From the NCBI RefSeq assembly GCF_900046455.1, contig NZ_FCOT01000012.1:668017-732016 (forward strand): a stretch of 64,000 nucleotides of DNA, read 5' to 3'. The DNA is from Cellulomonas timonensis (GTDB taxonomy: Bacteria > Actinomycetota > Actinomycetes > Actinomycetales > Cellulomonadaceae). Shown one piece after another: positions 49,732-64,000 of this stretch. A program made the position numbers and the translations under genes. The notes beneath the pieces were generated by a model, which did not search any database, was not told the origin of the DNA, and saw nothing but the letters and a program-made list of their open reading frames with translations. Numbering within the stretch: position 1 is the stretch's first letter; each line of letters starts with the position of its first letter.

Positions 49732-50760
49732 TCAGGGCGCGACGGCCGCCAACGCGGGCTGCGGCGGCGGGAAGAGCCGGCTCAGCACGTCCGCGAGGGT
49801 GATCACCCCGATGAGCCCGTCCGGCCCCTCGACCACCGCGAGGTGCTGGCGCCCCTCCCGCATCGCCGCGAGCGCGCTCGACACCGGCGTCGCGACGGGG
49901 AGCATGAGCACCGGCCGCATGAGCTCCACCACGGGAAGGTCCTCCCGCTCGGTCAGGGTGTCGCGCACATGGACCACGCCCACCAGGGCGCCGGCGTCCG
50001 CCACGAGCACCCGCAGGTGCCCCGAGGTGAGGCTGGCCTCGCGCACGTCCGCGACGGTGGCGTCCCTCGGCACGGACGTCGGGCGGACGTCAGGCCGCAG
50101 CAGGTCGGCCACCGTGAGCCGCTGCAGGTCCAACGCCCCCGCGAGCTGCGCAGAGAACCCCGCGTCCAGCGCGCCGACGTTCACCGAGTGCTCCACCAGA
50201 TGCCGCAGGTCGTCGGGGTTCTGCCCCGCCGCCACCTGCCCGGTGGGCTCCACGCCCACCTTGCGCAGGCACCAGTTGGCCATCCCGTTGAGGGCCACCA
50301 GCAGGGGGCGGGTCAGCACCATGAAGCCCCGCATCGGCAGGGCCAGCATCGTCGCCGACGCCTCCGGGTGGGCGATGGCCCAGGACTTCGGCGCCATCTC
50401 CCCCACCACCAGGTGCAGGAACGTCACGATGAGCAGCGCCAGGATGAACCCCGCCACGTCGGCGAGGACCAGTGGCGCGCCCCATGCCTCGAACAGCGGC
50501 GTGAGCCAGTGGTGCACCGCGGGCTTCGTGATGGCGCCGAGCGCCAGCGTGCACGCCGTGATGCCCAGTTGCGACCCGGCCAGCAGCAGGGTCAGCTCCG
50601 AGGAGCTGCGCAGTGCGGCACGCGCTGACCGGCTCGTCGCCGCCGCGTCCTCCAGCCGGTGCCGCTTGGCGGCGAGCAGGGCGAACTCGATCGCCACGAA
50701 GAACGCGCTGAGCGCGATCAGGAGCACTGTCACTGCGATGACTGCCCACGGGGCGCTCAT
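49732..50760 (-). CDS. CNNM/CorC (hemolysin C) family protein, second of pair
   Basis: 342-residue membrane protein. An N-terminal CNNM transmembrane domain (AFFVAIEFALLAAKRHRLE, LLLAGSQLGITACTLALG, LHLVVGEMAPKSWAI) is followed by two CBS domains (about residues 200-330: DLLRPDVRPTSVPRDATVADVREA and GVITLADVLSRLFPPP). It lacks the CorC_HlyC C-terminal domain of its partner. The family transports or senses Mg2+/Co2+. Its ATG overlaps the upstream partner's stop by 4 bases. Confidence 0.9.
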   Translation of the reverse strand: MSAPWAVIAVTVLLIALSAFFVAIEFALLAAKRHRLEDAAATSRSARAALRSSSELTLLLAGSQLGITACTLALGAITKPAVHHWLTPLFEAWGAPLVLADVAGFILALLIVTFLHLVVGEMAPKSWAIAHPEASATMLALPMRGFMVLTRPLLVALNGMANWCLRKVGVEPTGQVAAGQNPDDLRHLVEHSVNVGALDAGFSAQLAGALDLQRLTVADLLRPDVRPTSVPRDATVADVREASLTSGHLRVLVADAGALVGVVHVRDTLTEREDLPVVELMRPVLMLPVATPVSSALAAMREGRQHLAVVEGPDGLIGVITLADVLSRLFPPPQPALAAVAP

Positions 50761-52154
50761 CGGTCCCCCTCCTCGTTCTCAGTGGTGATGATGCCGCCGG
50801 GTGCGAGGTCGGGGAACGTGACCCGCACCCTGGCGGGCACGTGACGCTCGACCTCCTCCACCTCGACGCGCATCACGACGGGCGGGGGCGCATCGGCCAA
50901 GGCCAGGTGGGCGGGATCCGGCGGGAGCTCCACGTCCACCACCGTGCCCACGTCGGGCAGGCCGCCATGGACCGCGATCACCAGGCCGGAGATGGTCTCG
51001 TAGTCGCCGCGCGGCAGGTCATGCCCGACGGCGCGCTCCACCTCGTCGACATGCACGTCACCGGCCATCAGCCAGATGCCGTCCTCGTCCTGCGGCGCGC
51101 CCAGCGGCACGTCGGCGTCATGCTCGTCGGTGATCTCCCCGACGAGCTCCTCCGCGAGGTCCTCCAGGGTCAGCACCCCGGCGAAGCCGCCGTACTCGTC
51201 GACGACGCAGGCGAGCTGGTTGCCGGCGCCGGTCAGCACCCGCAGCGCGTCCGGCAGCGGCATCGACGTGGCGAGCATCAGGGCCGGGCGCATGATCGAC
51301 GCGGCGTCGTCAGCGTCCCGGCCGTCGATCGCCAGCACGTCCTGCAAATGCACCACGCCGACCACCTGGTCGTCGTGGTCCAGGACGGGGTAGCGCGAGT
51401 GCCCGGTGCTCATCAGGGCGCGCACGTGGCTGAGGGTGTCGTCCGCCCGCACCACATCCACCCGCGAGCGCGAGATCATCGCGTGCTCCACGTCCTGCTC
51501 CGGGAAGTCCAGGATCCGGTCCAGCAGCACCGACAGCTCGGCGGGCAGGTCACCGCTCTCCCGGGAGTCCGCGACGATGTGCTCGAGGTCGCGCACTGTG
51601 GCCGAGTGCTCCACGTCATGCACCGGCTCGATGCGCAGCGCGCGCAGCAGCAGGTTCGACGCCTGGTCGAAGATCCGGATGAGCCACCCGAACACCGCCA
51701 GGTACGCGGTGGTGGAGGTCGCCAGCCACAGGGCGACGGGCTCGGGGCGCGCGATGGCCAGGTTCTTGGGGAACAGCTCCCCCACGATCATCTGCACGAA
51801 CGTGGAGAACAGCAGCGCCAGCACGGTGCCGATCGCGCCGCCCACGCCGGTGGGCACGCCCACCCCGCCGAGCGCCTCGCCGAGCGAGGCCCCGATCAAC
51901 GGCTCGGCCACATACCCGACCAGCAGGCCAGTCACGGTGATCCCGAGCTGCGCGCCCGAGAGCATGAAGGATGTCCGGCGGGTCACCGCCAGCGCGCGCT
52001 GGGCCCCCGCGTCACCGGCCGCCGCACGCGCGCCCAGCCGCGAGCGGTCCACCGCCATGTAGGCGAACTCCTGGGCCACGAAATACCCCGTGACCGCCGT
52101 GATCGCCAGCACCACCAGGATGCCGAGAAGCAGCGTCAACACCCACATCACCAC
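50757..52154 (-). CDS. CNNM/CorC (hemolysin C) family protein, first of pair
   Basis: 465-residue protein. It has an N-terminal CNNM membrane domain (YFVAQEFAYMAVDRSRLG, LSGAQLGITVTGLLVGYVAEPLIG, MIVGELFPKNLAIARP), two CBS domains (about 210-335: MISRSRVDVVRADDTLSHVRALMSTGHSRYPVLD and DEYGGFAGVLTLEDLAEELVGEI) and a CorC_HlyC C-terminal domain (about 350-440: DGIWLMAGDVHVDEVERAVG). It has the full HlyC layout, with its smaller partner downstream, probably forming a heteromeric Mg2+/Co2+ transporter or sensor. It is divergent from the RDD gene across 242 bp. Confidence 0.92.
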   Translation of the reverse strand: MVMWVLTLLLGILVVLAITAVTGYFVAQEFAYMAVDRSRLGARAAAGDAGAQRALAVTRRTSFMLSGAQLGITVTGLLVGYVAEPLIGASLGEALGGVGVPTGVGGAIGTVLALLFSTFVQMIVGELFPKNLAIARPEPVALWLATSTTAYLAVFGWLIRIFDQASNLLLRALRIEPVHDVEHSATVRDLEHIVADSRESGDLPAELSVLLDRILDFPEQDVEHAMISRSRVDVVRADDTLSHVRALMSTGHSRYPVLDHDDQVVGVVHLQDVLAIDGRDADDAASIMRPALMLATSMPLPDALRVLTGAGNQLACVVDEYGGFAGVLTLEDLAEELVGEITDEHDADVPLGAPQDEDGIWLMAGDVHVDEVERAVGHDLPRGDYETISGLVIAVHGGLPDVGTVVDVELPPDPAHLALADAPPPVVMRVEVEEVERHVPARVRVTFPDLAPGGIITTENEEGDR

Positions 52155-55212: not shown

Positions 55213-55590
55213 TCAGGTCGTGCTGTCGGGCGTGGCCGTCGAGCCCTCGTAGAGCCCGATCACGTTGCCGTCCGGGTCCGCGACGACAGCCCACCAGCTC
55301 GTCGCGTCGATCTGCGACTTCGGCGCCCGCACCTCGCCGCCCAGCGCCACCACCTGCCCCAGCAGGTCGTCGATCGAGTCCACCTCGACGTAGCTGCGAG
55401 GAGCGGTGAAGTCAGCGTCCCGCGGGGCCAGGCCGCCACCGCTGATCTTGTTCGGCGCCTGCCACATCGGGTACTCCTCGAAGCCCGGGGGCGCCTGGAT
55501 GTCCCAGCCGAACAGTGGGCCGTAGAACGCCTTGGCCCGCGCGAAGTCCTCGACGGGGATGTCGATGTGCGTGATGTCGCCGTGTGCCAT
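55213..55590 (-). CDS. VOC family protein
   Basis: 125-residue two-repeat VOC protein with DITHIDIPVEDFARAKAFYGPLFGWDIQ at the N-terminus and VVALGGEVRAPKSQI, ATSWWAVVADPDGNVIGLYEGS at the C-terminus. The HxD and C-terminal E positions suit a metal-binding glyoxalase/dioxygenase-like fold, substrate unknown. It is the last gene before the lower-GC defence block and lies on the same strand as the giant helicase, 172 bp downstream of its stop. It probably belongs to the chromosome backbone. Confidence 0.85.
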   Translation of the reverse strand: MAHGDITHIDIPVEDFARAKAFYGPLFGWDIQAPPGFEEYPMWQAPNKISGGGLAPRDADFTAPRSYVEVDSIDDLLGQVVALGGEVRAPKSQIDATSWWAVVADPDGNVIGLYEGSTATPDSTT

Positions 55591-55762
55591 CTCGTCTCCT
55601 CAACGCAGGGCCGGGCCGCCCGGGTGCGGCTGGGCCGACTCTTCGCAGCGTAGGTCGGGTGGCGGCGGGCCGCGCGTTCGCTCAGCGCCACGCCCGAGAT
55701 TCCCCTCGCCAATGCCTTGGTCGGATTTCCCCGGGCGCTGCGAAGGCGCCTAGCAGTCATGT

Positions 55763-58700
55763 TCAGAGACGCCCTGCCGCCCCTCTCAGCCGACCGCCAT
55801 CATGAACAAGGAAGCCCTCGGTGACAGCGGCGACAACCACGCCGGCCAGACGGTCTCGAACGTTGCTGCCGAGCCGCGACCATCCGAAGAGACGGGCCGT
55901 CTCCCGCAGCAGTTCCTCCTCGTCGATGCGGAACGCACCGCGCACAACCGCCACCATCCCGTTCCGAAGCTCTTCGTAAGGAACGTCCGAAGCGTCGCGA
56001 GACTCCCCCGGTACGCGGTACCCGGCGTACGAGTTCGGCTCGAGGGCTCGCGGCCAGGCGACGAGATCGCCGTTCGCGCTCCGCACCACGACCCCGCCGG
56101 GCAGCATCCGGAGCATCTGTTCGGCTCGACTCCCCCGCACGCGGGCCAGCTCGAATCGTCGCGCCGTCACTCGAGCGAGCCGGTCCACCAGGATCGGCCC
56201 TTCCGCGTTCACGACGTCCATCATCTCCGCGGTGATGAGCAGAGCAGCGCGCCTTGTTGTCGCGTCGAGAACGTCGCGCGTGTGCCGCACATCCACAGCG
56301 GCAGCGAGGAACTCCGTGTGGTCGGGCTCGAGTTGCAGCGGCGCCTCGAGGCCAGCCCGCTCGAGAGCTGCTGGCGGCAGCGCCGAGGATCCAGATCCCG
56401 AGGCACGGAGTGCGTTGACGGCAGCCGCCGGGGCGTGGGGCGATCCGCCGATCCTCGAGTCGCTCTGCACGCCCGGCGAGGCCTGAGCTGTCGGGGCATC
56501 GGAGGCCGACGTACCGGTAGTTCTGATCGCTGGCGCGAGCCGATTGCCGTCATGTGACAGTCCCTCCGCCGTCGTGACGATCGACTGAACGACCGCATCA
56601 GCGTCGCGCAGCCACTCAGGAAGCCAGATCCGGGCGACGTCTGCCCAGCCCATCTGTTCGGTGAGCACTGTGCGCGGCAACCCGTCGCGATCCCCGGCGC
56701 TCTCCCTGGCGGCCCATCGTGGGCCGTCGAGAAGCACGGCGAGCCATGGCGCATCGAGGCCACTGCGGACTGCGAGGTCGATAGTGAAATCAGAGAGGCC
56801 CACACCTGCCCGAGTCTCCAGTCCTGCGGCTTCGAGACGTTCGCGAACCTGCTGCAGGTGCTTGTCACGAACGGGGGCTCTGCGGGTAAGCGCATGCTGG
56901 GCGCCGTCACGGGCGAGCAGCAGGTAGTCCTTCAGGTGGGCAAGGCCGATCGATCGGGACGACGACAGGTCGAGCTCATGCGGGTCGAAGGACGCGAACA
57001 CAACAACCTGTTCCTTGGCCCGCGTCACTGCGACATTGAGCCGCTTCTCTCCTCCTGCCCGGGTTAGCGGTCCCCAGTTGAGTGGCACCTTCCCCTTGGC
57101 ATCCTTCGCGAACGCCAGCGTGAAGAGCACGACGTCTCGCTCGTCACCCTGCACGTTCTCCAGGTTCTTAACGAACAACGGCTCATCGGCCTGGCCAAGC
57201 GCCTTTGCGATCACCGGATCCGTGTCTGCCCGCTGCTCCAACATGTCCAGGATCAGATTGCGCTGCTGGGTGTTGAAGGTCACCACACCGATGCTGCGTG
57301 ATGGGTCGTCACCCAGAAGTCGTGCTACCTCGTCGACCACAGCCTGCGCCTCGGCACGGTTCACCCGGGCTGCGCGTGCCGAGCCGCCCTCCCATGCTCC
57401 GTCCACGCGGCGCAGCTGCACCGCTGGTGCGCCTCCCTCCCGGGGCGGCGTCGGGAAACTGGCGAGTCGACCCTCATAACTGTGCTCGTTGGAGAAGGCG
57501 ATCAAGGATTCGTCTCGGGAGCGGTAGTGCCACGAGAGCATCAGGCGCGGGAGGTTGGACTCCACCGTCTCGCTGAGGATCGAGTCCATGTCGACCGGGA
57601 CGGGCAGCTCGTCGTCTCCGAGCACTTCCTCGTCATCTCCACCCGAGCCGGAGGCGGCGAACATCGACGATGGCGGCATCTGCTGCGAGTCGCCGACCAC
57701 CACCACTGCCTTGCCGCGGCCCATTGCCCCGATCGCCTCGGGCACCCTGATCTGCGACGCCTCATCGAAGACGACCACGTCGAATTCCACGGAGTCCGCC
57801 GGCAGGAATCTAGCGACAGAGCTCGGGCTCATCAGGAAGCAGGGCGTGACCTCCGTGATGATCGGCGCGTAGCGCTGCATGAGCTGCCGGATCGTCAATC
57901 CTCCACGGCGCCGGCTGATCTGCTGCCGGAGCTCGCCCACATCTCCGCGCTGCTGCTGGGCATCGAACGTCCGAGAAGCCACGATGCGCGCGGGCAACTC
58001 CTCGACCAGGCGACGCCGAACATCGCCGCCGGTCTCGACAAAGCGCCTGACGACGCCGGAGTGCTGGGCGGAGTCGAATCCGACGAGATTCGTCGTCTCA
58101 AGCCGCTCTGCGAGGATCTCCAGGGAAACCGCCAGGCGGACCGAGCTCTCGATGTCGGGCCCGCGCAGCTCGCCGTTGAGCACCCTCGTCTCGAGGTCCT
58201 CGAGGCCGAGTTCGCGCAAACGCCGTAGGGCGCTCGCTGACCTCACCCAGCGCTCCAACTGCACAAATGCCCCATCCACGGCGTCTGCCTGCCAGCTCGC
58301 GGCCGTGCGCTCGCGCGCACCACGCCAACCAGAGTCGCGTGTCCACGCCGCCAGGTCGGCGGGCTCGGCGCGCAGTGTGGCGATCAATGCCTCACGCGCC
58401 TGCGCCCATCCTCGGAGCAGCGCCCCGCCGGGACCACCAGACGTCAAGACGTCGGCAGTCGCACGGTCGAGGTCCTCGCTGGCGCCGAGCGCCGCCCCGA
58501 GTGCGGCGGACGCCTCCCATCCACGCACCCTGCCGGTCAGCCGTGTGAGGTCTGCCTCCCGGAACGGGTTGAACGACGGCGGCAGGTCGAGGCCAGACAG
58601 CGTCCGAACGTACGGAACCAGCCGGGCCAACTCATGCCGTGCTGCTGTCAGGCCCTGCAAGACGGGAGTCAGCCGCGACAACTCGACAGAGTCGGCGCTC

Positions 58701-61700
58701 GCCAGGAAGGGCTGCAGCTCCGCGAGGACGGCTGCGCGCGCCTTCTTCTTCCCGAAGAACTTTTTGTCTGCGGCGATGGATCGGGCAAGGAGGGCGTCGA
58801 TGTCTCGCTCGAGCACCTCGGGCGCGAAGCCGGTGACCTGCGCGCCAAAGGTCGCGCGGCAGTGCTCGACACCGCCGAGCACATCCCCGGCCAGCCGACG
58901 CCATTCTGGCGTCACCACGGTCGAGGCCTCACGCAGACCACGCGCGACGCCCGCCCGCTCGGCATCGAGCCATTCGGCGAGGACGAGCGCCTGGGCTGAC
59001 GTGTTGGCGAGGCCAGCGAGCCAATTCACTGCGGGCGTTCCCGTCAGGGCTGTTTCTGCGGCGCGAAGGGAAGCCAGAGCATTCTCGATCGCAGGCCGGT
59101 CTAGCCGCTCCCCCGCAGCGAGCGGCCCGGCCAAACGCCACGGCGAGTCCGCCGGGGCGACCCCGAGGCCCTGCAAGGCGTCACCGAGGTCATGAGCAAG
59201 CTCGTACACGTCATCGAGCGGCTGGCCGCCCATCACCAAGGACCGCGGAACCGTCAGCTGGGGAACACCATCCGACGCCAACTCGGTCACTTCGAGCACG
59301 ATCTGGCGTGCAGTCCAGGCCGACAGCCCGGCGGGGCCCTCGTCGTGCAGGTGGCGGGGATAGTGCGACAGGGACTCGACGAGGCTTCGATACGTCGAGC
59401 GGAGCGTGCTCCAACTCGCATCGCCCTGCGCCGAGGACTCGAGCGCATTCTGGAGCTGGCTCCGCACTGCCGACACCGTCTGGTTGGCGCCATGGACGTC
59501 GAGGCTGAACGGCGCGAGACCGACAGCGTCAAGTCGGCGCTGGACCACCTCGAGCGCCGCCTGCTTCTCGGCCACGAAGAGCACCTTCTTGCCCTCGGCG
59601 AGGCAGTGTGCGATGAGATTGGTGATGGTCTGCGACTTCCCCGTACCCGGAGGCCCTTCAAGGATGAAGGACTTCCCTGCGGCGGCCCAGCGCACTGCTT
59701 TGATCTGGGACCCGTCGGCGGGGATGGGGAGATACGTCGTCGCCTCGGCCGCGTCGTCGTTTGCGGGGGTCTCCACACCGTCATCGAATGGCCTGCCTGG
59801 CGTCTCGACGATGTGCCGCACTGCCGGGCGGCGCACTAGGGCCTCCCAACTCTGGTCCAGGTCGCGCCACATGCCGAGGGTGGAGAACTGGAAGGTTGCC
59901 AGGTGCGCCGTCTCCTCCACATAGAACGAAGTCGCCTTCGCGCGGAGGAGAGTCGAGCGGATGCTGCGGAACGCGCCATCGAGGTCGATTCCCGAATCGT
60001 CGGTCCCCGGATCCACCAGCTCAGGCAACTCGAGCCCGAAGCTGACCCGGAGTTTCTCCTGCAGGCAGTAGTTCGGCTCCATATCGCGCGTGTCGTCCCG
60101 CTCGATGCGAAACGCCGTGGAGCCGCGGCCCCCGACGAGCCGGACCGGGAGGAGGAACAAAGGGGCGTGTCCCTCCTTGCGCTGCTCGGTCCACCGCAAG
60201 GAGCCGAGCGCGAGGTACAGGCTGTCGGTGCCCGTCTCCTCGCGCGCAGTGGCTGCTCGCCGGAGGAGCGCCTTCAGCTTGGTCGCGTACTCCGTCGCGG
60301 TGTGAGCAACGAACACGCGGTGCCCGGCCTGGAGCTCGGAGCGCAGAGTGTCCGCGTCGACGTCGGCAGCGGTTCGAGAGCCGTGCAGGTGGTGGATCGC
60401 GGCAACTTGGTCACTGGGAGAGAGCTCGATCGAGATTCCGCCGGCAATCAGGTCTTCGAGGGCGCCCAATGCCGCCGAGGGGATGTGGAGCGTCGATGTC
60501 GACGCCGCTTTGAGCTTGAGCAGCGGGTTCGCGTAGGTCATGTCCAGCAGAGATCGTCGCCATCGCGCGATCCGGGCGGGTGCCGATTCCGCCACAGACG
60601 GCGTGCGCGCTGTATCCCCCGAGGGCATGCGGAGCGCCTGGGCAACGGCGATCTCCCGCACCGTCTCGACGATGCGGACGTCACCCTCGCGTCGGATCGT
60701 GGGCAGCGGACGATACCAACGGTGGGCCGCCCGGACATCGATGAGCGCTTGCACCTCGTCGAGCCGCGACGTCCACCACCGGCGGGTCTCAGCCCGTGCG
60801 GCATCGAAGTCCCGCTGGCTGTCACCGGCGGTCAGCGCTGTGGTCTCGATCGCTTCGAACGACTCCGAGTCGGCGATGGTGACGATGCCGCCCCGCTCCT
60901 CGACTAGGGCCTCTGGCAGTTGCGTGTCCTCGGTGAGATACCCGCAGAACGCATGATTCCGGGTGACCACCAGCACGGGGGCGAGGCCAGCTTGCTCGAG
61001 AGCAGCGGCATAGGTGCAGGCAAGGTCGAGACACGTGCCGATGCGGTCGTCAAGCACCTCGCGGTGGCTACGGATCCTCTGTCCGGTCCCCTCGAACGAG
61101 GCTGGCGGTTCCACATACGTGATCTGACGAGCAGCCATCGCGTCGTACACGGCCCGCGCGATGCGGTGCGCCCGCTCGGGGCCCGCCTGGTAGCCCTGAA
61201 GCGATGGACTGCCTGTCCGCTCCTGGAGCAGCACGCTCGCCTCACCGAGCAGTTCGGCGATGGCCGGCTCGTTCGGACGGACGAACGAGACCAGAGAGTC
61301 CGCAGAGCTGCGTGCCCACCACTCGTCGGCGGAGAGGACGCGCACTGTGACCTCGTCGCGGTGCACAACGCCACCGCGCTCCACCTCGAGCGTGGCTACC
61401 GCGACGGCACTCTCGTCGATTTCGAGGAATGCCGAGGGACTCAACTGCCACGCCAGGGCCGCATGCGGGGCCTCCACGCGCTGCCCCGGGCGCACGTCGC
61501 CGAGGTGTACCGAGAGCGGGACGGCAATCGCCGAGCGTGAGACGTCGTCCGGCAGCCGGAGGCTGACCCCGACGCGGACATCCTCGGCCACCACCTCACC
61601 ACGGTTGTGCACCGCGAGCCGCACCACCGGGCTTGCGCCGTTGTGCACCAGCGCGTAATTCAACGACTCGTGTGCGAGGACCACCACGTCGAGATCGCCA

Positions 61701-62275
61701 ACGCGGGCGGAGAGCACGACGGTGCCCCGCGGTCCGTCCATTTCCGGCACGCGGACAGCGGTCTGCACCGTGGACGTGGGATCGACAAGCGCCGCAGCGG
61801 ATATGGGCTCTCCGGCGGCAGTGCCCTCATCCGCACTCGCAGCGGCGACAGCGTTCTCGTCAGCGGTGCCGAGAACCCTTAGCTCGACCAGTTCAGTGGC
61901 CGCCTCCGCGAACCCCAACGACCGGGCGAGCAGCGTCATCGTGTCCAGCGCGCGGTCCACTTGCGCCTGCTCAAGGCTGATGGTGTGCGCCGCGCGGTTC
62001 GACGCCTGGATCAGCTCGTCGATCCACGCTCGCTGCGTGGCGTCGATCTCAGTGAACACACCCCGCTCGAACCGCACGATGCGCAGCAGAAGTCGCGGGT
62101 CGTCCAGGTCCGCACGGAAGGCGCGCCCACGCCGCTCGGACTCCTTCGCCTCGTACAGCGGAAGCCAGGGAGCACCCGCGACGGACTGCTGCATCCGGAC
62201 GTCGACGAAGGCCATCAGTCCTGCCGCCAGTACGTCCAGCCCGCGCCCTTGGCGTTCCTTCTGGGTGAGCTTCAT
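55763..62275 (-). CDS. Hhe-like giant protein: transglutaminase-like, DUF4011, SF1 helicase, MTES_1575-type nuclease, DUF3320
   Basis: 2170-residue protein, probably antiviral. Residues 1-200 are helical, then an Ig-like/beta segment. About 380-470 resemble a transglutaminase/cysteine-protease fold with Cys415 in RIGTCLDLACTY and His441 in NHAFCGYL. DUF4011 (ARWRRSLLDMTYANPLLKLK, about 565-760) precedes a split SF1 helicase: Walker A GPPGTGKSQT with Lys880, and DEAS at Asp1504 with GDSQQMPP, then LNVAVTRAKEQ. A Vsr/MTES_1575-like nuclease (about 1780-1905) and DUF3320 (about 2000-2170) end it. The DUF4011-helicase-Vsr-DUF3320 order matches the Hhe system known from defence screens. ATG 62275 was chosen over the longer frame. 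Base composition is lower in GC than neighbours. Confidence 0.85.
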   Translation of the reverse strand: MKLTQKERQGRGLDVLAAGLMAFVDVRMQQSVAGAPWLPLYEAKESERRGRAFRADLDDPRLLLRIVRFERGVFTEIDATQRAWIDELIQASNRAAHTISLEQAQVDRALDTMTLLARSLGFAEAATELVELRVLGTADENAVAAASADEGTAAGEPISAAALVDPTSTVQTAVRVPEMDGPRGTVVLSARVGDLDVVVLAHESLNYALVHNGASPVVRLAVHNRGEVVAEDVRVGVSLRLPDDVSRSAIAVPLSVHLGDVRPGQRVEAPHAALAWQLSPSAFLEIDESAVAVATLEVERGGVVHRDEVTVRVLSADEWWARSSADSLVSFVRPNEPAIAELLGEASVLLQERTGSPSLQGYQAGPERAHRIARAVYDAMAARQITYVEPPASFEGTGQRIRSHREVLDDRIGTCLDLACTYAAALEQAGLAPVLVVTRNHAFCGYLTEDTQLPEALVEERGGIVTIADSESFEAIETTALTAGDSQRDFDAARAETRRWWTSRLDEVQALIDVRAAHRWYRPLPTIRREGDVRIVETVREIAVAQALRMPSGDTARTPSVAESAPARIARWRRSLLDMTYANPLLKLKAASTSTLHIPSAALGALEDLIAGGISIELSPSDQVAAIHHLHGSRTAADVDADTLRSELQAGHRVFVAHTATEYATKLKALLRRAATAREETGTDSLYLALGSLRWTEQRKEGHAPLFLLPVRLVGGRGSTAFRIERDDTRDMEPNYCLQEKLRVSFGLELPELVDPGTDDSGIDLDGAFRSIRSTLLRAKATSFYVEETAHLATFQFSTLGMWRDLDQSWEALVRRPAVRHIVETPGRPFDDGVETPANDDAAEATTYLPIPADGSQIKAVRWAAAGKSFILEGPPGTGKSQTITNLIAHCLAEGKKVLFVAEKQAALEVVQRRLDAVGLAPFSLDVHGANQTVSAVRSQLQNALESSAQGDASWSTLRSTYRSLVESLSHYPRHLHDEGPAGLSAWTARQIVLEVTELASDGVPQLTVPRSLVMGGQPLDDVYELAHDLGDALQGLGVAPADSPWRLAGPLAAGERLDRPAIENALASLRAAETALTGTPAVNWLAGLANTSAQALVLAEWLDAERAGVARGLREASTVVTPEWRRLAGDVLGGVEHCRATFGAQVTGFAPEVLERDIDALLARSIAADKKFFGKKKARAAVLAELQPFLASADSVELSRLTPVLQGLTAARHELARLVPYVRTLSGLDLPPSFNPFREADLTRLTGRVRGWEASAALGAALGASEDLDRATADVLTSGGPGGALLRGWAQAREALIATLRAEPADLAAWTRDSGWRGARERTAASWQADAVDGAFVQLERWVRSASALRRLRELGLEDLETRVLNGELRGPDIESSVRLAVSLEILAERLETTNLVGFDSAQHSGVVRRFVETGGDVRRRLVEELPARIVASRTFDAQQQRGDVGELRQQISRRRGGLTIRQLMQRYAPIITEVTPCFLMSPSSVARFLPADSVEFDVVVFDEASQIRVPEAIGAMGRGKAVVVVGDSQQMPPSSMFAASGSGGDDEEVLGDDELPVPVDMDSILSETVESNLPRLMLSWHYRSRDESLIAFSNEHSYEGRLASFPTPPREGGAPAVQLRRVDGAWEGGSARAARVNRAEAQAVVDEVARLLGDDPSRSIGVVTFNTQQRNLILDMLEQRADTDPVIAKALGQADEPLFVKNLENVQGDERDVVLFTLAFAKDAKGKVPLNWGPLTRAGGEKRLNVAVTRAKEQVVVFASFDPHELDLSSSRSIGLAHLKDYLLLARDGAQHALTRRAPVRDKHLQQVRERLEAAGLETRAGVGLSDFTIDLAVRSGLDAPWLAVLLDGPRWAARESAGDRDGLPRTVLTEQMGWADVARIWLPEWLRDADAVVQSIVTTAEGLSHDGNRLAPAIRTTGTSASDAPTAQASPGVQSDSRIGGSPHAPAAAVNALRASGSGSSALPPAALERAGLEAPLQLEPDHTEFLAAAVDVRHTRDVLDATTRRAALLITAEMMDVVNAEGPILVDRLARVTARRFELARVRGSRAEQMLRMLPGGVVVRSANGDLVAWPRALEPNSYAGYRVPGESRDASDVPYEELRNGMVAVVRGAFRIDEEELLRETARLFGWSRLGSNVRDRLAGVVVAAVTEGFLVHDGGRLRGAAGRL

Positions 62276-62503
62276 CAGTCCTTCACTCCTGTGTGTCGCC
62301 GCGTGCGATCGAGGGCGTCGCACCGCGCGGTGAGACAGCCTCTCAGCGCTGCGCGACCGCTCGACGGACTATCGCCCGAATGGCGTAGCGGAGAGGCGCC
62401 AGCCGAGACGGGTACGACGACGCGCGCGTCACGGGAAGGGCGGCGGTCTGAGGCAGACTGCTCCACAACAACCCCGCACAGCTCAGCAGTGGAGGCACGC
62501 CCG
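62276..62503. other. Divergent region between Hhe-like gene and hsdM
   Basis: 228 bp with both start sites facing out. It carries a GTGGAGG ribosome site for the hsdM GTG. I see no clear inverted repeats, C-protein box or promoter I can assign. No gene is supported here. Confidence 0.5.
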
Positions 62504-64000
62504 GTGAACGGCTACAACGACATGGTCGGGTTCATCTGGTCGGTCGCCGACCTGCTCCGCGGGGACTACAAGCAGGCGGAGTACGGCAAGGTCATCCTGC
62601 CGCTCACCGTCCTGCGGCGACTGGACTGCGTGCTGGAGCCCACCAAGCCCGCTGTCCTGGCCAAGGTGAAGGCCCTCGGCGAGGGTGTCGGCAACGTCGA
62701 CCCGATCCTGCGCCGCGCGGCGGGGCAGCCGTTCTACAACGTCTCGCCGCTGGACTTCCGTGGGCTGCTCGCCGACCCGGAGCACATCGCCCGCTCGCTC
62801 CGCCTGTACATCGACGCGTTCTCGCCTGGCGCCGTCGAGGTGCTGGACAAGTACGGGTTCGACGCCCAGATCACGAAGCTGGACGAGGCCGGGCTGCTGT
62901 ACCAAGTAGTCGCGCGGTTCGCGGATGTCGACCTGCACCCGGACAAGGTCACCAACCTGCAGATGGGCTACCTCTTCGAGGAGCTGATCCGCAAGTTCAG
63001 CGAGGCGGGCAACGAGACCGCCGGGGAGCACTTCACCCCGCGCGAGGTCATCCGCCTCATGGTCAACCTGCTGCTGGATGACGACGACTCGACCCTCGCA
63101 ACCCCCGGCATCGTCAAGACCATCTACGACCCCGCCTGCGGGACCGGCGGCATGCTCTCCACCGCCGAGGACTGGATCCGCGAGCACAACCCCGCCGCGA
63201 ACCTCGAGCTGTTCGGCCAGGAGCTCAACCCCGAGACCTACGCCGTCTGCCGTTCGGACATGATGCTCAAGGGCCACAACGCCCAGAACATCGCCCTCGG
63301 CAACTCGTTCTCGCACGACGCACACGCAGACAAGTCCTTCGACTACATGCTCGCCAATCCACCGTTCGGGGTCGAGTGGAAGAAGGTCCAGACGTTTGTC
63401 GAGGACGAGGCCGCCCGCGGCTACGCCGGCCGGTTCGGCGCCGGCACCCCGCGCATCAACGACGGCTCCCTGCTGTTCCTGCAGCACATGATCGCCAAGA
63501 TGAAGCCGCTCTCCGAGGGTGGCTCCCGCCTGGCGATCGTCTTCAACGGCTCGCCGCTGTTCACCGGCGCCGCCGGCTCCGGGGAGTCGGAGATCCGCCG
63601 CTGGATCTTGGAGAACGACTGGCTCGAGGGCATCGTCGCCCTGCCTGACCAGCTTTTCTACAACACCGGGATCTCCACCTACTTTTGGATCCTCTCCAAC
63701 CGCAAACGCCCCGAGCACAAGGGCCAGGTCGTCCTGCTTGACGCACGCGACCAGTTCACCAAGATGCGCAAGTCCCTCGGCGACAAGCGCAAGGAGACCT
63801 CGCCCGATCAGATCGCGCAGATCACCCGCTGGTACGCCGACGCCCTCGACACCGCCGCCGACCCCGAGAGCCCCGACCACGCACGCGTCAAGGTGCTCCC
63901 GACGACGGCGTTCGGGTACCAGCGCATCACCGTTGAACGTCCGTTGCGCCTGCGTTTCGAGGTGACCGACGACGCCATCGAGACGGTGCGCGCGAGCAAG
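62504..64000 (+). CDS. hsdM: Type I restriction-modification system methyltransferase subunit HsdM (3' truncated by window edge)
   Basis: 499 codons of an open frame running off the right edge, without a stop. The N-terminal HsdM bundle (NDMVGFIWSVADLLRGDYKQAEYGKVILPLTVLRRLD) is followed by the N6-adenine methyltransferase core. SAM-binding motif I is DPACGTGGML at residues 209-218; the catalytic motif IV is NPPFGVEW at 285-292. HFTPREVIRLMVNLLL is also present. It methylates adenine in the bipartite target read by HsdS. GTG 62504 has GGAGG upstream. hsdS and hsdR presumably lie beyond the window. The Hhe-like gene is divergent. Confidence 0.96.
   Translation, partial: MNGYNDMVGFIWSVADLLRGDYKQAEYGKVILPLTVLRRLDCVLEPTKPAVLAKVKALGEGVGNVDPILRRAAGQPFYNVSPLDFRGLLADPEHIARSLRLYIDAFSPGAVEVLDKYGFDAQITKLDEAGLLYQVVARFADVDLHPDKVTNLQMGYLFEELIRKFSEAGNETAGEHFTPREVIRLMVNLLLDDDDSTLATPGIVKTIYDPACGTGGMLSTAEDWIREHNPAANLELFGQELNPETYAVCRSDMMLKGHNAQNIALGNSFSHDAHADKSFDYMLANPPFGVEWKKVQTFVEDEAARGYAGRFGAGTPRINDGSLLFLQHMIAKMKPLSEGGSRLAIVFNGSPLFTGAAGSGESEIRRWILENDWLEGIVALPDQLFYNTGISTYFWILSNRKRPEHKGQVVLLDARDQFTKMRKSLGDKRKETSPDQIAQITRWYADALDTAADPESPDHARVKVLPTTAFGYQRITVERPLRLRFEVTDDAIETVRASK

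Follow-up and report, generated by a model that had tools for sequence, protein, structure and literature searches.

The 64,000-nucleotide window analysed here, from Cellulomonas timonensis (contig NZ_FCOT01000012.1, positions 668,017 to 732,016), carries towards its right end a gene for a giant protein of 2170 residues that likely acts as a single-protein defence enzyme of the PDC-S37/MTES_1575 family, gained within a 17-kb block and working independently of the type I restriction-modification (R-M) system encoded beside it. The block as a whole is probably a phage-defence island. In favour of this reading stand the score against the PDC-S37 profile, the Pfam domains, near-invariant motifs, the adjacent R-M system, an empty site in a congener, the ratio of nonsynonymous to synonymous divergence (dN/dS), and the clustering of HsdR genes at related loci; domains, motif states, island boundaries, completeness of the R-M system and a tract of high identity are all read from the sequence. 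A 2013 study had already described the family to which the protein belongs, and the label 'Hhe' that an earlier note on this DNA had given it is approximate.

The giant gene occupies 55763-62275 on the reverse strand, with an ATG start. The earlier note had proposed a 2170-residue product with the order DUF4011, helicase, Vsr/MTES_1575 nuclease and DUF3320, which the open reading frame (ORF) and the Pfam matches bear out; the search with hidden Markov models that it suggested detected DUF4011, DUF3320, AAA_11/12 and MTES_1575 alike, and two further features came to light, an N-terminal HEPN_Swt1 domain and a weak transglutaminase-like stretch. From the N-terminus onwards, and likewise on the reverse strand, the gene encodes HEPN_Swt1 (residues 11-120, 61916-62245, E 1.4e-12), within which a degenerate HEPN motif, SNRAAH (residues 92-97, 61985-62002), has lost the Arg of Rx4H to Ser and kept the His; a transglutaminase-like domain at about residues 331-530 (60686-61285), its limits being our choice from weak Pfam matches and column counts; DUF4011 (residues 576-742, 60050-60550, E 2.9e-27); a superfamily 1 (SF1) helicase (residues 854-1761, 56993-59716) made of AAA_11 (residues 854-943, E 7.8e-16) and AAA_12 (residues 1565-1761, E 1.6e-18) with a long insert; a Vsr-type nuclease matching MTES_1575 (residues 1808-1900, 56576-56854, E 7.1e-13); and DUF3320 in the winged helix-turn-helix (wHTH) region (residues 2014-2038, 56162-56236), a borderline match at E 1.8e-5 whose score of 25 bits equals the cut-off; the E-values from DUF4011 to DUF3320 are those for the whole protein. 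The helicase part matches Smubp-2, Sen1 and Upf1/Nam7 chains; up to E 1, profiles of the HEPN-transglutaminase and nuclease-wHTH parts matched no solved structure.

Of 214 confirmed related loci (prefix L; genomes carry the prefix G), the best 80 were kept, and the 80-row alignment comprises the window and 79 of them, L061 (frame-split, under 900 bits) being left out. Walker A (GPPGTGKS, with K880) and DEASQ are invariant in all 80 rows, as is the nuclease aspartate D1850, and D1833 is kept in 79. Compared with its counterpart in Cellulomonas cellasea, the giant gene has 20 synonymous and 9 nonsynonymous differences, a dN/dS of 0.16. It is a real and probably functional member of its family.

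The best PADLOC match is PDC-S37 (878.6 bits, residues 567-2163 against profile positions 8-1544 of 1550), which is silent on the HEPN and transglutaminase parts because the matched stretch begins at residue 567. The Hhe profile (PDLC02194) scores 409.5 bits, under half of that, with its best stretch at residues 1340-1904, and the helicase-nuclease part is alike; the four other family members tested likewise score higher with PDC-S37 than with Hhe. Membership in Hhe, which reportedly comes from a published defence screen, was rejected on these scores: the resemblance seen in the earlier note is genuine, but PDC-S37 and the 2013 HEPN-transglutaminase family are closer. Likeness to Mokosh (MkoA and MkoC, 92.4 and 88.5 bits) is limited to the helicase region. 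Among the openly licensed PubMed Central papers searched, none was found with experiments on this giant-protein family, and none naming PDC-S37.

Giant proteins of the MTES_1575 type, built as HEPN-transglutaminase-SF1 helicase-Vsr-2 wHTH, were described by Anantharaman et al. (2013; PMC3710099), with the same domain set and order as in the window protein, where the transglutaminase-like part is putative, and a similar length. A Microbacterium testaceum StLB037 locus of that type is L015 of our set, at about 37% identity in the best segment and with an intact HEPN motif. DUF4011, the SF1 helicase, the MTES_1575 nuclease and DUF3320/wHTH stand in the family order in the window protein, and an N-terminal Swt1-type HEPN is present; the active motif Rx4-6H of the MTES_1575 family is not, Arg being replaced by Ser where the paper lists the MTES_1575 HEPN as 'active'. 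This does not exclude membership, since by the same paper (PMC3710099) the motif is only partly conserved across the Swt1-like group.

Several observations bear on the origin of the block, which spans 55763-72768 in window numbering. Its left border is a VOC/glyoxalase-like gene (55213-55590, reverse strand) conserved in the congener G003, where both flanks are present, the 17-kb block is absent and about 0.9 kb lies between (G003 positions 395016 and 394115 correspond to 55677 and 72789 in window numbering). G003 is also the sole genome of the seven in the genus search, the window's included, without a family match. Just right of hsdR, 48 bases are left of a gene that G003 has, so the gain of the island was accompanied by loss of other genes; we also note, at L003:12805-13044 (72789-73028 in window numbering), decayed remnants of two genes that are open in G003. 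Conserved core synteny was considered and rejected on account of the G003 site. The block has 67.7% GC against 72.7% to its left, and the giant gene 67.9% against 72.7% (window 1-55762) and 71.2% far to the right; the earlier contrast of about 62% with about 70% thus had the right direction and overstated the size, single 60-base lines within the gene ranging from 58 to 80%. Within the 100 kb read, a GC equal to that of the giant gene or below it occurs in 14 of 187 windows of 6.5 kb. With a complete type I R-M system beyond 64000, a congener lacking the block and lower GC, the proposal of an acquired defence island is supported. As for other carriers, phage records gave a single match among 50,697 (32.8% identity), and plasmid records 329 among 72,556, none of which covers 80% of the query.

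Not everything fits a single gain of a phage-defence gene, and the points that weigh against it are best taken together. The PDC-S37 family is labelled a 'candidate' in PADLOC, and the transglutaminase-like matches, within residues 371-438, fall below the Pfam cut-off. Relatives without HEPN occur in four of the seven genus genomes (G001, G004, G005 and G006), and in the 20 kb read around each of them no relatives of the window's R-M genes were found. In G004 (L105 and L111) the relative lies about 20 kb from a homologue of one of the left-flank genes, with the gene order preserved, and adjoins stretches that match the window near 46 kb; at this GC the tblastx comparison is subject to noise. 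The wider region may thus be an older seat of the family, one that its members occupy repeatedly, and one simple gain may be too simple an account; these results slightly lowered our confidence that the protein is a defence enzyme gained with the block. Moreover, according to PMC10250203, a DUF4011 gene is a core flank of hotspot cDHS1 in Pseudomonas aeruginosa, so some relatives may not serve phage defence. That core gene, the HEPN-less relatives in four of the seven genomes, and the similar gene that follows them in G001 and G006 and reads like a methyltransferase (our label) would suit a house-keeping or genome-maintenance helicase. For the window copy we think such a role improbable, as this copy is absent from G003, sits in an island with R-M genes, has low GC and bears HEPN and nuclease domains. 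Two details of the HEPN-less relatives may be recorded: that of G004 (L009, L012) is split over two frames and has Tyr at the expected transglutaminase His, and the match in G006 (L008) holds one in-frame TAG.

The giant gene and hsdM are divergent, and the 228-bp region that the earlier note saw them share runs from 62276 to 62503, between the ATG of the former and the GTG of the latter. The 5' part of hsdM, a type I methyltransferase gene, fills 62504-64000 on the forward strand (GTG start at 62504, GGAGG upstream) and the gene ends 495 bp past the window. Sequence past 64000, where the note had pointed for hsdS, hsdR and further defence genes, contains them: the operon continues with hsdS, a DUF6308 gene, a PDC-S48 DEDDh exonuclease gene with BRCT, a gene for an SLFN/AlbA-HTH protein, and hsdR, which ends at 72768. 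HsdM, HsdS and HsdR are all present with open frames, so the type I system is complete, and the profiles agree (MTase_I at 903 bits, Specificity_I at 247, REase_I at 103, and HSDR_N above its cut-off).

Such an arrangement raises the question of whether the giant protein and the R-M system form one unit, in which methylation would mark self and the giant protein would attack unmodified DNA, or act upon R-M failure, by a logic like that of PrrC. The shared divergent region is in keeping with this, and in Microbacterium (L025:6594-16405 and L027:827-16447) the giant gene lies directly 3' of hsdR in the same orientation, and in L025 the two genes, as called, share 4 bp; other methyltransferases also occur nearby, 2 of 103 scanned neighbours matching cytosine/type II methylase profiles and a type IIG-like gene standing about 6 kb away in L087. 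Yet in flanks of up to 10 kb on each side (under 9 kb on one side in 24 loci), relatives of HsdM were detected near 7 of the 80 loci and of HsdM or HsdR near 8 (L013, L024, L025, L027, L040, L066, L075 and L088), leaving 72 with neither, distant R-M families being able to escape detection; most of the R-M genes found belong to different families (24-30% identity in L025, L027, L040, L066 and L088). Conversely, congener G005 has a homologous R-M system (HsdM 62%, HsdR 53%), with hsdS followed directly by hsdR and, in the 20 kb read, none of DUF6308, PDC-S48, SLFN or the giant gene. Since this R-M system stands without a giant gene, the two are separable, and an obligatory link was rejected as a rule of the family.

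The same findings tell against the suggestion, made in the earlier note, that modification marks self DNA for the giant protein, as does PMC3710099, which had already predicted that such proteins attack DNA irrespective of its modification and that suicide by the HEPN RNase serves as back-up. The paper also states that such systems lack modification genes entirely, whereas the window gene adjoins a type I R-M system; since relatives of HsdM or HsdR occur near 8 of 80 loci, this does not apply generally. In the 50 genomes searched, HsdR had 33 matches in 23 genomes, 6 of which lie inside fetched loci, genome positions being tied to loci by coordinates; two further coincidences of coordinates, in L019 and L042, did not withstand checking. 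These six matches lend the one-unit arrangement some support, but the clustering of HsdR at the loci is a defence-island pattern rather than that of a fixed unit, and we give this arrangement little credence. Aside from these matters, L027 shares with the window's locus the placing of PDC-S48 between hsdS and hsdR, with an HsdM only 26% identical.

The PDC-S48 exonuclease is a more recurrent companion of the giant gene than R-M. It is the commonest PADLOC family (5 members, the methylase families coming next) among the near neighbours of the giant gene at 30 loci of HEPN-bearing relatives; the scan covered 103 of the 106 proteins listed, called with a simple gene caller of our own, and it excluded proteins above 900 aa (HsdR included) or below 100 aa and missed the L046 exonuclease. 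By tblastn it occurs in 12 of 80 loci, near full length and at about 40% identity or more in 8, and it immediately adjoins the giant gene on the same strand in L015, L046, L066 and L079. It could then be a working partner, perhaps with DUF6308, the giant protein nicking or unwinding and the exonuclease degrading. That the plain R-M system of G005 has no PDC-S48, DUF6308 or SLFN gene is consistent with this, as are two Mycolicibacterium genomes in which DUF6308 lies close to the giant gene (L037:8603-9229 and L041:8622-9248). Among 39 whole genomes searched, 23 have a PDC-S48 match, and six of these have a single match, a good copy whose coordinates place it at the giant locus; in G015, G030 and G035, however, good copies lie away from it. 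Furthermore, the flanks fetched for 68 of 80 loci show no PDC-S48 gene, L015, L046 and L066 form one clade, four of the 12 matches, from Blastococcus, reach no more than 32-35% identity over about 320 aa, and both genes may simply accumulate in defence islands. We regard partnership as an unlikely account.

In the HEPN domain, the window copy departs from most of its HEPN-bearing relatives. HEPN occurs in 32 of the 80 rows, 30 in frame and 2 (L019 and L079) intact in a broken reading frame, and the HEPN_Swt1 profile is matched by 28 of 29 rows of alignment A2. Arg and His are both intact in 26 of the 32, 24 of these in frame; six rows are degenerate (window, L013, L023, L071, L081 and L091). 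HEPN was scored absent in 50 rows, a figure that includes L019 and L079, here and in the tallies below, despite their broken-frame domains, and L086, which is cut by a contig end. SNRAAH is common to the window and to C. cellasea ET82 (L013), and a sequencing error is unlikely because the codons are identical. The HEPN region as a whole shows zero differences between the two, an identity that carries little weight, their shared tract being too young. With its catalytic Arg missing, this HEPN is predicted not to cut RNA, and may have been kept as a binding or regulatory module.

The window copy keeps C415 and H441 of the transglutaminase-like domain, and a C415-H441-E477 triad, with E477 as third residue, is possible from the alignment. 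Position 415 is Cys in 56 rows, Pro in 17, Ala in 3 and Ser in 2; the 2 unaligned rows (L079 and L086) were not counted for Cys state. The Cys-to-Pro rows, mostly Blastococcus, are L058, L043, L051, L060, L052, L064, L053, L038, L063, L085, L044, L059, L048, L068, L062, L054 and L067, and all of them retain the domain. The Cys is lost in none of the 24 rows with intact in-frame HEPN, against 22 of the 54 others. A coupled loss of HEPN motif and Cys was considered on this basis and judged not significant: the raw Fisher p of 7e-5 ignores kinship, and on the tree there are 3 Cys changes and one informative independent pair, which makes it a lead only.

A tract of about 99.5% identity to C. cellasea ET82 extends over 55517-63678 of the window, between flanks of about 93%, and holds the giant gene, the divergent region and the first 59% of hsdM. 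Counted over 55720-63660, the two differ at 40 of 7941 aligned bases, against 730 of 9971 in the left flank and 418 of 6681 in the right; synonymous divergence (dS) amounts to 0.012 in the giant gene but to 0.116 over the whole of hsdM and 0.143 in the SLFN gene. Such a tract between such flanks disfavours vertical inheritance alone for the giant gene, and it looks like the product of recent recombination or transfer between two Cellulomonas lineages. A second difference concerns hsdS (L003:4508-5731 and L013:6594-7784), which shows no DNA-level alignment and encodes proteins 27.6% identical, while the remaining operon is about 94-96% identical; we read this as a specificity swap. The nearest kin of the pair are unsure because it sits on a branch of 1.46 in a quick-method tree.

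Taken as a phage-defence enzyme that acts alone, the giant protein would work as follows, antiphage activity, substrate and order of events being what we infer. The block with the giant gene and the type I R-M operon would have been gained between the VOC gene and the remnants of other genes. The C-terminal wHTH and the DUF4011 part may engage foreign nucleic acid, on which the Upf1-like SF1 motor would translocate, or which it would remodel, and which the Vsr-type domain would cut. The transglutaminase-like domain would be a second part, peptidase-like or regulatory, and HEPN in this lineage would bind or regulate without cutting RNA, all of this proceeding independently of the neighbouring R-M system. 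A broader scheme, rather doubtful in our view, joins the giant protein and PDC-S48, possibly with DUF6308, into an unnamed multi-gene system that combines with type I R-M as a module; within it, the transglutaminase-like peptidase and the RNase of the HEPN domain would form a linked toxin-control unit whose parts decay together, HEPN would have turned into a sensor in this lineage, and the gene would have moved recently between two species.

Beyond the block, hsdR is followed by genes for an MFS transporter and a flavin adenine dinucleotide (FAD) protein, and to its left, at 49732-52154, two adjacent ORFs read from their sequence like CBS/CNNM membrane proteins.

What is fresh here is the loss of the HEPN Arg, the young exchange tract and the link with PDC-S48, the family itself being already known. 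A relative with an empty site, a relative with a swapped hsdS and a relative with plain R-M, all within one genus, open the 2013 prediction (PMC3710099) to direct testing. That a copy found in nature lacks the HEPN Arg calls into question the need for HEPN RNase suicide, and the recurrent PDC-S48 neighbour offers a concrete candidate partner for these giant proteins.

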